34,555 bases of DNA from an uncultured Methanomicrobiales archaeon (lineage in GTDB: Archaea > Halobacteriota > Methanomicrobia > Methanomicrobiales > Methanospirillaceae), in contig CAIYHQ010000085.1 of assembly GCA_903926075.1 (NCBI GenBank), positions 1 through 34,555 of the forward strand, in the 5' to 3' direction. The translations under genes were made by a program, and so were the position numbers. The notes under the pieces are model-generated. The model saw nothing but the letters and a program-made list of their open reading frames with translations. It had not been told where the DNA came from and made no database searches. Positions 2 through 26,635 of this stretch are shown here, piece after piece. Position 1 is the first letter of the stretch, and every line of letters begins with the position of its first letter.

Positions 2-2172
2 CTCGATAGGATTCGGGCTGATTTCGATGGGTTAAAGATCTTTTTTACTGATCCTATTCTCCCGGATAACGGATACGAAGGACAAAACTGGCAGGATGAT
101 TTTCAACTTACTTTGCATATCCAGGACGAAGTCAATATCACAAGAAAAACAGGGAATATCTTCCTAACCAACATTCACCGTGTCTATGACAGCAACACCA
201 AAACACCTACCTTTGATGATGAAGACACGATGGCATATTTCCTGGGTCCAAAACCCGTGGGAGCAACCACTGATTCAAAACTGGATCTCGGTGACATTGT
301 AAGAAATATCGATGAATTAATGGTTCTAAATGACGAGGCTCATCATGTCCACGATGAAACGCTCGCGTGGTTCAAATCAATTCAGGACATCCACAACCGC
401 CTTCTTCAAAAAGACAGCAGACTCTCCATGCAGATAGATGTTACTGCTACTCCTCGCCATAATAATGGAGCTATATTTGTCCAGACTATATCTGATTACC
501 CTCTCGTTGAGGCAATTTATCAGAACATAGCAAAACATCCGGTTCTTCCTGATTCTGCAAGCCGAGCGAAACTTTCGGAAAAAAAGAGTTACAAATATTC
601 TGAAAAATATGAAGATTACATCCATCTTGGATATCTTGAATGGAAAAAGTTTATGATGAACACCTAAAACTTGGAAAAAAAGCTGTCCAATTCATAATGA
701 CCGATGATACCAAGAATTGCGATGAAGTAGCCGGGTATCTTGAAAATCAATATCAGGAATTGAAAGATGCGGTTCTTGTTATTCACACCAAAAACAATGG
801 AGAGATATCGGAATCAAGTTCCGGGAAGAAGAATGAAGAATTGGAGAAGCTAAGAAAAGCAGCGAATGAAATTGACTCTCTTGATAATCATTACAAAGCT
901 ATTGTTTCCGTACTGATGTTAAAAGAAGGATGGGATGTAAAAAATGTCACAACCATTGTTGGACTCAGGGCATATAGTTCAAAAAGTAACATCCTCCCTG
1001 AACAGACACTTGGTCTGGGATTAAGACGGATGTACCGCGGTCAGGAAGATATAACAGAATTTGTGAGTGTGATCGGGACCGATGCATTCATGGACTTCGT
1101 TGAAACTATAAAGAACGAAGGTGTCGAAATTGACCGGAAAAAGATGGGAGAGGGGACAGATCCCAATGCACCGTTAGTAATAGAAGTTGATAAAGAAAAT
1201 ACTAAGAAAGATATTGATAAACTCGACATTCACATTCCTGTTCTATCTCCTCGAATTTATCGTGAATACAAGAACCTCTCTCTTCTGGACATAACAAAAT
1301 TCGGGAATAAAAAATTTCCTGTAATTGCATTTAGTGAAGAAGAACAACGTGAAATAATTTTCAGGGATATCACAACTGAGGAAATTACCCATAAGACCAT
1401 ACTTGATAGCAACATTGTTGCAAATTATCAAAGTGTTATTGGGTATTTCGCCCAGGTTATAATGAAGGAGCTTCGACTGGTAAGCGGATACGATATCCTT
1501 TATGGAAAGTTCAAATTATTTATTACAACGCAATTATTTGAACAGGATATTGACCTTAATAGTCTGAATATATTGAGAAATCTTTCTGAGATGGAGGTCA
1601 CAAAAAACTTAATTGAAACATTCAAGAAACAGATCAATCTATTAACTATCTTGCAGAAGGGCGAGGCACAAATCCGGGATTATATTAAGATCAGTAAATG
1701 CAGACCCTTTGTTACAAAAGACCAGGGCTATCTCGTCCCAAAGAAAAGTGTTTTCAATAAAATAATTGGAGATAGCAAATTAGAATTGGACTTTGCTAAC
1801 TTCCTCGAGAATTGTGATGATATCATTTCCTATGTTAAGAATTACTTTGCAGTGAATTTCAAGATCGATTACCAAAATAACAAAGGAGATATTTCTAATT
1901 ATTATCCAGATTTCATTGTGAAGAAGACTGATACCGAAATATATATTGTTGAGACAAAGGGTCTTTTAGATCTTGATGTGCCTTTGAAGATAGGGCGGCT
2001 AAATCAATGGTGCAAAGATATTAACGCCCTTAAAACCGGAATAGAATACCATTGGTTATTAGTTAAACAAGATGAATTTGAAGCATATACTCCGAAAAGT
2101 TTTGATGAATTAGTAAAGAACTTCTCAATGCAAAAAAGGGATGTGCAAAGAGACACACAATTTTTCAGATAG
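2..2172 (+). pseudogene. res: Type III restriction enzyme Res subunit, 5'-truncated by window edge and frameshifted
   Basis: ATP-dependent helicase/nuclease subunit of a type III restriction system. The reading frame is already open at base 2, so the start and Walker A motif lie outside the window. The first piece (to 667) carries the DEAH box in LNDEAHHVHDE and the TATP motif. The second piece (frame of 640-2172) carries the motif V/VI region (KEGWDVKNV, GLGLRRMYRG) and a C-terminal PD-(D/E)xK nuclease motif (YPDFIV followed by IVETKG). Family alignment reads straight across if one A is added to the A5 run at 644-648 (YLEWKK joined to VYDEHLK), so a one-base deletion explains the break. No Mod methyltransferase is in the window; it would be expected upstream. 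Either a real pseudogene or a sequencing error in one homopolymer. Confidence 0.85.
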
Positions 2173-22797: not shown

Positions 22798-23955
22798 ATG
22801 AAGAGTCCGTTTCATATAATGCTTATCCCAACCCTGGGCTGCCCATCAAACTGTAGTTATTGCTGGAGTTCAGAGGAAAATTCTTCGGTAATGAACCTTG
22901 AAACAGTAAATGATGTTGCACTCTGGCTTAAGGATTTCCAAAAGGATCAAGTGACAGTAACATTTCATGGCGGTGAGCCACTTCTCGCAGGCGCAGATTT
23001 TTATCGTAAAGCACTACCACTCATTTCTGACGAGTTAACTGAATTAAGGCCCTCTTTTGCAATTCAGACGAATCTCTGGAGAATGACAAGGGAAATTGCC
23101 GAAATTTTTTCAGAATATTCCATCCCTGTCGGTTCAAGCATTGATGGTCCAAAGGAAATAAACGATCTTCAGAGGGGTGAAGGATATTTTGAAAAAACAA
23201 TGCGGGGCTATAAAATTGCACAGGAATCCGGATTATCAGTGAGGTTCATTTGCACGTTCACTTCGTATTCAATAGAATATAAAAAGAAGATATTCGAATT
23301 TTTCCTCAATAATAACTTAGTCCTCAAACTTCATCCTGCTTTACCATCGATGAAGGGAGACAATCCGAATAAGTGGGCACTTTCACCTGAACTTTATGGG
23401 GAACTACTTGTATATCTGCTTGACAGGTACCTTGAGAACCTGGGAAAAATTGAGGTCATGAATATCAATGATCTATTCAGGTGTGTATTTACCCGGAGAG
23501 GATCGGTATGCACGTTCGTTGACTGCATGGGAAATACATTTGCAATAGGGCCTGAAGGTGATATTTATCCCTGCTATCGCTTTGTCGGGATGCCAGACTT
23601 TGTAATGGGACATGTAAGAACTCACCCCTCAAAGGAAGAACTGCTCGCCTCTGAAGCAGGTCAGCGTATGCTACGGTTTAAAGAATATGTTGATAAAAAC
23701 TGTCAGGATTGCACTCATATAAGATATTGCCGAGGAGGGTGTCCTTATAATGCAATTGCCCTGACAAATGGGGAAGTGAAAGGTGTTGACCCTCATTGTA
23801 TTGCTTATAAACGGGCATTTAACGAGATTAATGAACGTCTTAATGAGGAGATGTTTGGTTCATCCTCGATAGATATGCTCGGAGCAGGGAAGGGTATAGT
23901 TGAGGGTGGAAGACCAGGGATTATGGCATTAATGCAGAAGATAATGTCAGGTTAA
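22798..23955 (+). CDS. Radical SAM/SPASM protein, putative peptide- or protein-modifying enzyme
   Basis: 385 residues. The radical SAM cluster motif is C15-x3-C19-x2-C22 (LGCPSNCSYCW), with a GGEP motif (FHGGEPLLAG) for SAM. The C-terminal third is a SPASM-type domain with many Cys (CTFVDC, IYPCYRF, CQDCTHIRYCRGGCPY, DPHC), able to hold auxiliary [4Fe-4S] clusters as in anaerobic sulfatase-maturating and peptide-maturing enzymes. It resembles a group of methanogen enzymes predicted to modify peptides. A glycine-rich tail ends the protein. No obvious Cys-rich or leader-type precursor peptide is encoded on either side, so the substrate is unknown. Confidence 0.85.
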   Translation: MKSPFHIMLIPTLGCPSNCSYCWSSEENSSVMNLETVNDVALWLKDFQKDQVTVTFHGGEPLLAGADFYRKALPLISDELTELRPSFAIQTNLWRMTREIAEIFSEYSIPVGSSIDGPKEINDLQRGEGYFEKTMRGYKIAQESGLSVRFICTFTSYSIEYKKKIFEFFLNNNLVLKLHPALPSMKGDNPNKWALSPELYGELLVYLLDRYLENLGKIEVMNINDLFRCVFTRRGSVCTFVDCMGNTFAIGPEGDIYPCYRFVGMPDFVMGHVRTHPSKEELLASEAGQRMLRFKEYVDKNCQDCTHIRYCRGGCPYNAIALTNGEVKGVDPHCIAYKRAFNEINERLNEEMFGSSSIDMLGAGKGIVEGGRPGIMALMQKIMSG

Positions 23956-25162: not shown

Positions 25163-25657
25163 TTACATGTATCCAGATTGTATTTCAATTATCTCTGCAC
25201 TGTCCTTCGCATTTTTATATAAAGTAAGTGGTTCTTCATTAAGCTCATAGAATCTGATTCCCCATGAAATCTTTGAAAGTACATGCATAGCCTGTTCTTC
25301 TTCTCCAAATATGTAGAGGGCTGCTGCCAGTGCTTCCAATGACGAGAGTACGCATGGTTTGCCAAAATTTACCGGGTTTGCAGCAAAAAGGAGTGGAAGG
25401 GCTCGCTTGAGACGCCAGTTCCTGATCGCTTTTGATTCAAGGACTGCCCATGAGCAGTCAAGTACTGCAAGAGAATGAACCATGTGTTTATCTGCCGGTG
25501 AGAGCGCCTGAGGAACAGTAGGGTCAAGGAGCATTGAGCCCTTGGGAATTGCACGAATTTTTGGTACAATTGTAAGTAGACCTGCACGTTCAAGTCTTTT
25601 AACCGAGCACTTTTTTGGGTCGCAGGTATTGTCCCGGTATGCATAAAGCGGGATCAT
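25163..25657 (-). CDS. tsr3: Tsr3-family rRNA aminocarboxypropyltransferase (DUF367)
   Basis: 164 residues. The protein opens with a short Cys-containing lead (NTCDPKKCS, typical of Tsr3), then LDCSWA and LLFAANPVNFGKPCVLSSLEALAAALYI, the family's most conserved block, which forms the SAM-binding trefoil-knot core. Tsr3 transfers the aminocarboxypropyl group of SAM to a hypermodified uridine in small-subunit rRNA; archaeal members act on the equivalent 16S position. It is divergent from the next gene with only 30 bases between start codons. Confidence 0.9.
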   Translation of the reverse strand: MIPLYAYRDNTCDPKKCSVKRLERAGLLTIVPKIRAIPKGSMLLDPTVPQALSPADKHMVHSLAVLDCSWAVLESKAIRNWRLKRALPLLFAANPVNFGKPCVLSSLEALAAALYIFGEEEQAMHVLSKISWGIRFYELNEEPLTLYKNAKDSAEIIEIQSGYM

Positions 25658-25687: not shown

Positions 25688-26635
25688 ATGTACGTTCTGG
25701 TATGCCCTTGCTGTATACATCCTCATCTCAGGGCTGATGGAATAACCAGTGAGATAGATTTGAAAAATTATATTAAATCTCTAAATCGTTGCAAGGAATT
25801 CGGGCTTGAAGTAATCTCGCTACCCTGTCCGGAGACGGAATACCTGGGTAATAAAAGAAAACCCGGAACCTATCTTGAAAGGCTGAACACCCCTGAGTTT
25901 CATGCAATCCTCGAGACCCTCACAATGAATGTGAGAGAAATTATAAAATCCTGTGGCCTACCCCTCTGTATTCTGGGTGTGAACTCCTCACCAACGTGCG
26001 GTGTTACAAGTACCTACTATGGCATTGAAAAAAAAGAAGTTGAAGTTCAAAAAAACGATAATTCTTTAAATATAGGTAAATTTGTCAAGAATACTGGAAA
26101 AAAGGAAGGGAGAGGAGTATTTCTTAACAGGTTTCCGGACATTCCTGCCTTTGATGTTGCACATTTCGCTGCATACAAAATATATCTTGCTGCTCCCCTG
26201 TTTACCCTGGCTGAAAAAAAATTTAACAGTTTCATTGCAAATATCCTGAAAAAGTCCTTTTTCAAAGTCTATATCCCTCAGGAATCAGGAGATACCTCAG
26301 AGTTATTCACAAAAGAAGGTCACAAAAAAATTTTTTCGCAGCATGTGAAAGCATTACATGAATGTGACCTTGTTATTGCAATTGTTGATGGTTCAGATGC
26401 TGATTCAGGAACATCCTGGGAAATGGGCTATGCGTTCGCGTTAGGAAAACGAATTATTTCACTACGGACTGATTTCAGAAGATTTGGATTATATGAACCT
26501 GTAAACCTGATGCTTTCTGAGTCTTCTGAACTTGTAAAGTCTGAATCTGAATTACTATCTCTCCTTAACCCGCCAATTAACTCTGTAGATGATATAGATT
26601 TTGTTAAGTATCCTGCAGATCAATACTGTTTATAA
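25688..26635 (+). CDS. Fusion of TudS-like thiouracil desulfidase domain and nucleoside 2-deoxyribosyltransferase-like domain
   Basis: 315 residues in two parts. Residues 1-155 resemble DUF523/TudS: three cysteines fall where TudS binds its [4Fe-4S] cluster, C8 (with RADG nine residues on), C47 in LPCPE and C104 in NSSPTCGV. Residues 163-265 are a COG3613-type deoxyribosyltransferase/N-glycosidase: KIYLAAPLFTLAEKKF, CDLVIAIVDGSDADSG and TSWEMGYAFALGK, with E245 the likely nucleophile. TudS removes sulfur from 2-thiouracil; the second family splits or exchanges the base of (deoxy)nucleosides or nucleotides. The fusion suggests stepwise breakdown of thiolated nucleosides (inference). The two domains are recognised with more confidence than the combined role. 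Confidence 0.78.
   Translation: MYVLVCPCCIHPHLRADGITSEIDLKNYIKSLNRCKEFGLEVISLPCPETEYLGNKRKPGTYLERLNTPEFHAILETLTMNVREIIKSCGLPLCILGVNSSPTCGVTSTYYGIEKKEVEVQKNDNSLNIGKFVKNTGKKEGRGVFLNRFPDIPAFDVAHFAAYKIYLAAPLFTLAEKKFNSFIANILKKSFFKVYIPQESGDTSELFTKEGHKKIFSQHVKALHECDLVIAIVDGSDADSGTSWEMGYAFALGKRIISLRTDFRRFGLYEPVNLMLSESSELVKSESELLSLLNPPINSVDDIDFVKYPADQYCL

Follow-up and report, generated by a model that had tools for sequence, protein, structure and literature searches.

What cells do with the sulfur-modified nucleosides left by RNA decay has only begun to be worked out, with TudS described in 2023 and RudS in 2024. In the crystal structure of TudS, a thiouracil desulfidase (DUF523, PF04463; PDB 6z96), the cluster is held by C10, C43 and C104, with E45, S101 and S103 as helper residues, and the enzyme prefers 4-thio-UMP to free 4-thiouracil (PMC10611767). 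RudS is a TudS-DUF1722 tRNA 4-thiouridine desulfidase composed of an N-terminal TudS-type catalytic domain and a DUF1722 domain, which brings in the tRNA; its authors named DUF1722 as the main fusion partner, and mutation of RudS S113, the match of TudS S103, abolished activity (PMC11417400). The CD3072 family (NF045597) is a further TudS-like group, of solo proteins with frames of about 140-215 aa and without known substrate.

In nucleoside deoxyribosyltransferases (NDTs), a Glu attacks C1' of the nucleoside, an Asp and an Asn bind O5', and a Tyr positions the Glu (PMC10913048, PMC7308715); the Asn, located in the NLM motif, is contributed to the active site of the adjacent subunit (PMC7308715). 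AvNRT, the archaeal PF05014 N-ribosyltransferase of Archaeoglobus veneficus, uses ribonucleosides only and has Phe where the deoxyribosyltransferases have Tyr (PMC7308715). In CtNDT, D62 stands in the way of the 2'-OH; Asn in this place, as in TbPDT, was proposed to admit ribose, and the D62N variant of CtNDT was no better in using ribonucleosides (PMC10913048, PMC12645435). The same variant hydrolysed nucleosides more than the wild type (PMC10913048).

We analysed a window of 34,555 nucleotides, positions 1 to 34,555 of contig CAIYHQ010000085.1 of an uncultured Methanomicrobiales archaeon, in which a single gene joins relatives of these two enzyme classes (Table 1). The frame was intact, with an ATG start and 315 residues, including cysteines at positions 6, 8, 9, 35, 47, 89, 94, 104, 226 and 314, and the AlphaFold model of the full-length protein had a mean pLDDT of 79. 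The original prediction had described it as one protein made of a TudS-like desulfidase and an NDT, and this description held, with the N half being a remote TudS relative. A frameshift, assembly or mis-join artefact was ruled out by the same architecture in about 80 genomes, many of them single-contig. The insertion between the domains was predicted to be disordered and was unique to this protein among the 65 aligned fusions. In a literature search for DUF523 together with nucleoside deoxyribosyltransferase, we did not find such a fusion described.

Table 1. Coordinates of the fusion gene, its domains and predicted active-site residues, and of the loci discussed with it (positions in the window, unless a locus is named)
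Feature	Position	Strand	Basis
Fusion gene, TudS-like domain + NDT domain	25688..26635	+	315 aa open frame; architecture common to 65 distinct proteins of the order
N domain, residues 1-149, TudS-related [4Fe-4S] desulfidase-like (predicted)	25688..26134	+	NF045597, hhalign, AF2 pLDDT 82.8
C8, predicted cluster ligand (TudS C10)	25709..25711	+	65/65
C47, predicted cluster ligand (TudS C43)	25826..25828	+	65/65
E49, predicted catalytic base (TudS E45)	25832..25834	+	65/65
R57, likely counterpart of the Glu-orienting Arg in TudS/RudS	25856..25858	+	64/65; role from PMC11417400
S101 (TudS S101)	25988..25990	+	65/65
C104, predicted cluster ligand (TudS C104)	25997..25999	+	65/65
18-residue insertion between domains, residues 118-135	26039..26092	+	gap in 64/65 aligned proteins; pLDDT <50 at 121-135
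C domain, residues 164-268, nucleoside (deoxy)ribosyltransferase fold	26177..26491	+	PF05014 82.4 bits; Foldseek
Y166, counterpart of LlNDT/CtNDT Y7 and AvNRT F7	26183..26185	+	Tyr 65/65
H219, counterpart of pocket D62 (CtNDT) / N53 (TbPDT)	26342..26344	+	N 35, H 26, C 3, L 1 among 65
D239, sugar O5' ligand (CtNDT D82)	26402..26404	+	65/65
E245, predicted nucleophile (CtNDT E88)	26420..26422	+	65/65
N273 of NLM motif (CtNDT N118)	26504..26506	+	64/64 fusions reaching that position
Tsr3-like ribosome biogenesis protein, divergent neighbour	25163..25657	-	PF04034 140 bits; 30 bp between the two starts
CD3072 loci with CD3073-type neighbour	L150:890-1489, L157:879-1499, L154 ~876-1442		NCBIfam for L150, L157; shared motif for L154

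As judged from its sequence, the N domain is a remote relative of TudS rather than a plain PF04463 member. The N half scored 18.1 bits against PF04463 (cut-off 34.7) and 51.1 bits against the CD3072 model NF045597 (equivalog cut-off 130), which the other fusions also matched, all below 130 bits. In profile comparisons by hhalign, the N domain matched solo CD3072-type relatives with P=7e-24 and canonical TudS, represented by 14 archaeal PF04463 domains, with P=6e-9, whereas the negative control, a comparison with the NDT-domain profile, gave no match (P=0.49); a chance likeness to TudS was thereby ruled out. The nearest relatives, the CD3072 proteins, had the motifs HC...LPCPE...SPSCG in common with the fusion N domain. 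Sequence searches of the PDB with the N-domain profile and with the CD3072 profile did not retrieve TudS. When the N-domain model was compared with the folds in the PDB, no match was significant and TudS was outside the best 50, a result that weighs little against TudS because the alignment behind the model was shallow. In this genome the fusion was the sole TudS-like match, and no PF04463 match exceeded the cut-off.

In the predicted N-terminal active site, C8, C47, E49, S101 and C104, equivalent to C10, C43, E45, S101 and C104 of TudS, were invariant in 65 distinct fusions, and the TudS motifs were also seen in PDB chain 6z92. The fusion thus resembles TudS in the three cysteines, the Glu of the CPE motif, the Ser of the SPxC motif and the Arg after the Glu, but differs from it in the longer spacing between the first and the second Cys and in the attached NDT domain. 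It also differs at TudS Ser103, which is T103 here and variable among the fusions (T 43, A 9, S 6, V 4, C 3; Ser or Thr in 49 of 65). Two further cysteines, C6 and C9, were variable among the 65. The original prediction had picked C8, C47 and C104 as the TudS pattern and had made its case dependent on their conservation: these proved to be the right three, and every fusion retained them.

The C domain clearly belongs to PF05014, for which the cut-off is 28.8 bits. The nearest solved structures by sequence were the Desulfotalea 2'-deoxyribosyltransferase 7o62 (E 8e-14) and its relatives, and 7o62 was also the best Foldseek match of the AlphaFold model (E 7e-9), while the (d)NMP N-glycosidases DNPH1, MilB and BcmB were more distant (E 0.013 to 0.9). 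E245, assigned beforehand to a COG3613-type domain, indeed fell inside the PF05014 domain and was invariant across the 65 fusions, as were Y166, P170, F172 and D239. The fusion shares with the NDTs (Desulfotalea 7o62, CtNDT, LlNDT) the fold, the Tyr, the Asp that binds O5', the nucleophilic Glu and the Asn of the NLM motif, but departs from them in carrying a desulfidase-like domain and in lacking the classical pocket Asp (CtNDT D62, LlNDT D72), which was Asn or His in 61 of 65 fusions and Asp in none. Since these residues are invariant, both active sites are under selection, and this is the strongest reason to regard both domains as probably enzymatic.

With regard to the sugar, the evidence was not one-sided, as Tyr166 and the absent pocket Asp seem to point in different directions. 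AvNRT, likewise archaeal and in PF05014, has its active-site motifs in common with the fusions, whereas its Phe7 and its use of ribonucleosides set it apart from them, as all fusions have Tyr at this position; Phe was found there in an archaeal solo homologue (L111). The constant Tyr argues against ribonucleosides derived from tRNA and, by analogy with the characterised enzymes, suggests deoxyribose. Because D62N raises hydrolysis in CtNDT and the fusions are without Asp in this place, they may lean towards base release, if single mutants of another enzyme are a guide.

The original prediction had called for a search for the domain pair across genomes. We found the fusion, as one frame of 247-526 aa, in 80 of the 83 sampled Methanomicrobiales genomes (counted from the table of matches), and none was seen in sampled genomes outside this order. 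When the N-domain matches in a phylum sample of 393 genomes were sorted by order and frame length, those outside Methanomicrobiales lay in frames of 139-215 aa. In a second sample, of 398 genomes from a bacterial phylum, 21 genomes had N-domain matches, nearly all in frames of at most 216 aa, with one second match in a frame of 288 aa. When about 85,000 species genomes were scanned within the limits of a sequence pattern, full-length relatives came from Methanomicrobiales alone. Outside the order the two domains occurred apart and independently. Three members of the order had no N-domain match, and two of them (L106 and L107, two genera of one family) retained the NDT domain near Tsr3. Both were nested inside the fusion clade in the tree, which indicates that they lost the N domain. 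The presence of a single frame in 80 of 83 genomes, together with conserved synteny, dates the linkage to about the root of the order; the fusion is, on this comparison, old and vertically inherited. In one fusion (G049; L143 / L052) the frame was interrupted around residue 254, the C-terminal end continuing in a different one; this may reflect either a genuine frameshift or an error of sequencing.

ThiI was found in this genome, so s4U is probably made. Neither a uracil phosphoribosyltransferase (UPRTase) nor a thymidine kinase was found here above their cut-offs. The pattern of pyrimidine salvage varied by family: none of the sampled genomes of the fusion-bearing families f1, f2 and f3 had UPRTase (PF14681), whereas most of those of f6 and some of those of f5 did. 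Given this absence, uracil salvage by the usual route would not be possible in most carriers of the fusion; detoxification or the removal of sulfur is therefore the likelier role, or else salvage takes an unrecognised route. In some Bacillota, the solo CD3072 relatives adjoined S components of CD3073-type ECF transporters, suggesting that there the family may serve in the import and desulfuration of a thio-compound.

The best single explanation of these observations, to which we would give slightly less than an even chance, is an anaerobic, bifunctional enzyme acting on nucleosides or nucleobases that bear sulfur. In such an enzyme, C8, C47 and C104 would bind a [4Fe-4S] cluster and leave one of its irons free to take the thio-sulfur, and water, made reactive by E49 with the help of S101 and R57, would attack the carbon to give the oxo-base and sulfide. 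The C domain, as a dimer or tetramer, would use E245 to attack C1' of the nucleoside so that the base leaves, and the sugar would then pass to water or to another base; hydrolysis may dominate, as the pocket Asp is replaced by His or Asn. The two sites would most likely act in succession on the same thio-nucleoside, in detoxification or recycling. For this speaks that the TudS residues were kept in the 65 fusions save position 103 and that the nucleophile and O5' ligands of the C domain were invariant, together with the profile links to TudS and to CD3072, the linkage in 80 of 83 genomes, the absence of another TudS-like match in this genome, ThiI, and the hydrolysis by CtNDT D62N; against it count the loosely kept S103, the missing PDB fold match to TudS, the two genera with the C domain alone, Tyr166, and the lack of UPRTase and thymidine kinase above cut-off. 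Thus, of the original prediction that the protein frees a thiobase and then desulfurates it, the pairing of the domains stood as real and old, with key residues of both sites invariant and ThiI in the genome, whereas its proposed tRNA source (s2U or s4U) is weaker than stated, in view of Tyr166, and uracil salvage did not fit the gene content. Thiouracil is a putative N-domain substrate by homology alone. A narrower form of this explanation, which we offer tentatively, is an order-wide enzyme with two coupled steps, detachment of the base from a (deoxy)nucleoside and then its desulfuration by the iron-sulfur site, dedicated to the detoxification or recycling of thio-nucleosides, possibly for a not-yet-known thiolated 2'-deoxynucleoside.

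A serious rival, although rather unlikely in itself, is that both domains are active but not consecutively: the N domain would desulfurate a small thio-compound of some unrelated kind, the C domain would handle ordinary 2'-deoxynucleosides derived from DNA, the fusion serving only to co-regulate or stabilise them. It draws in part on the CD3072 neighbourhood, since this nearer family is without known substrate and adjoins a transporter component, and it agrees with the deoxyribose suggested by Tyr166 and with the separate, independent occurrence of the domains outside the order. To our knowledge, there is no natural pool of thio-deoxynucleosides, which counts in the same direction. Moreover, the C domain can evidently do without the N domain, as two genera keep it alone. 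Set against this, the linkage persisted in nearly the whole order with the catalytic residues of both domains kept, and the sole characterised TudS chemistry concerns nucleobases and their nucleosides and nucleotides, the same class as NDT substrates (PMC10611767). That TudS prefers 4-thio-UMP over the free base (PMC10611767) also means that base release need not come first. The order could then be reversed, the N domain desulfurating thio-nucleotides or thio-nucleosides and the C domain cleaving or exchanging the repaired nucleoside; we consider this improbable, because N273 and D239, which bind a free 5'-OH in NDTs, are retained in the C domain, and the latter is far nearer to NDTs than to nucleotide N-glycosidases, so a product with 5'-phosphate would fit poorly. 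More improbable still is that the N domain, instead of removing sulfur, binds a cluster as a sensor or structural element and so controls the C domain: its scores under both family cut-offs, the variable position 103 and the missing fold match would agree with this, but E49, S101 and R57, which are not ligands in TudS, were as invariant as the cysteines.

A fusion fixed in a whole methanogen order restricts the candidate substrates to nucleosides and the bases of these. Like RudS, the fusion has a TudS-type domain at the N terminus of a two-domain protein. It differs from RudS in having no DUF1722: its C half gave PF05014-type matches only, and its second domain is therefore of a small-molecule enzyme in place of one that brings in tRNA. 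The fusion is a ready test protein, adds a clue for the CD3072 group, and hints at built-in recycling or detoxification of sulfur-containing nucleosides in nearly all methanogens of one order.

The sole constant neighbour of the fusion across families was the divergent Tsr3-like gene, which was found in this arrangement in 62 of 62 loci examined, with start-to-start gaps mostly of 30-36 bases; a shared promoter region for the two genes seems likely. No operon partner gave a hint of the function, as the downstream membrane glycosyltransferase-like genes varied between families, and repeated upstream ORFs at some loci turned out to be shadows, overlapping Tsr3 on the opposite strand. Elsewhere in the window, a radical SAM protein with a SPASM domain (22798-23955) lies between TyrRS-like and GAPDH-like genes, and two frames that overlap, 113-667 and 640-2172, resemble the pieces of a single helicase-like restriction subunit interrupted by a frameshift.
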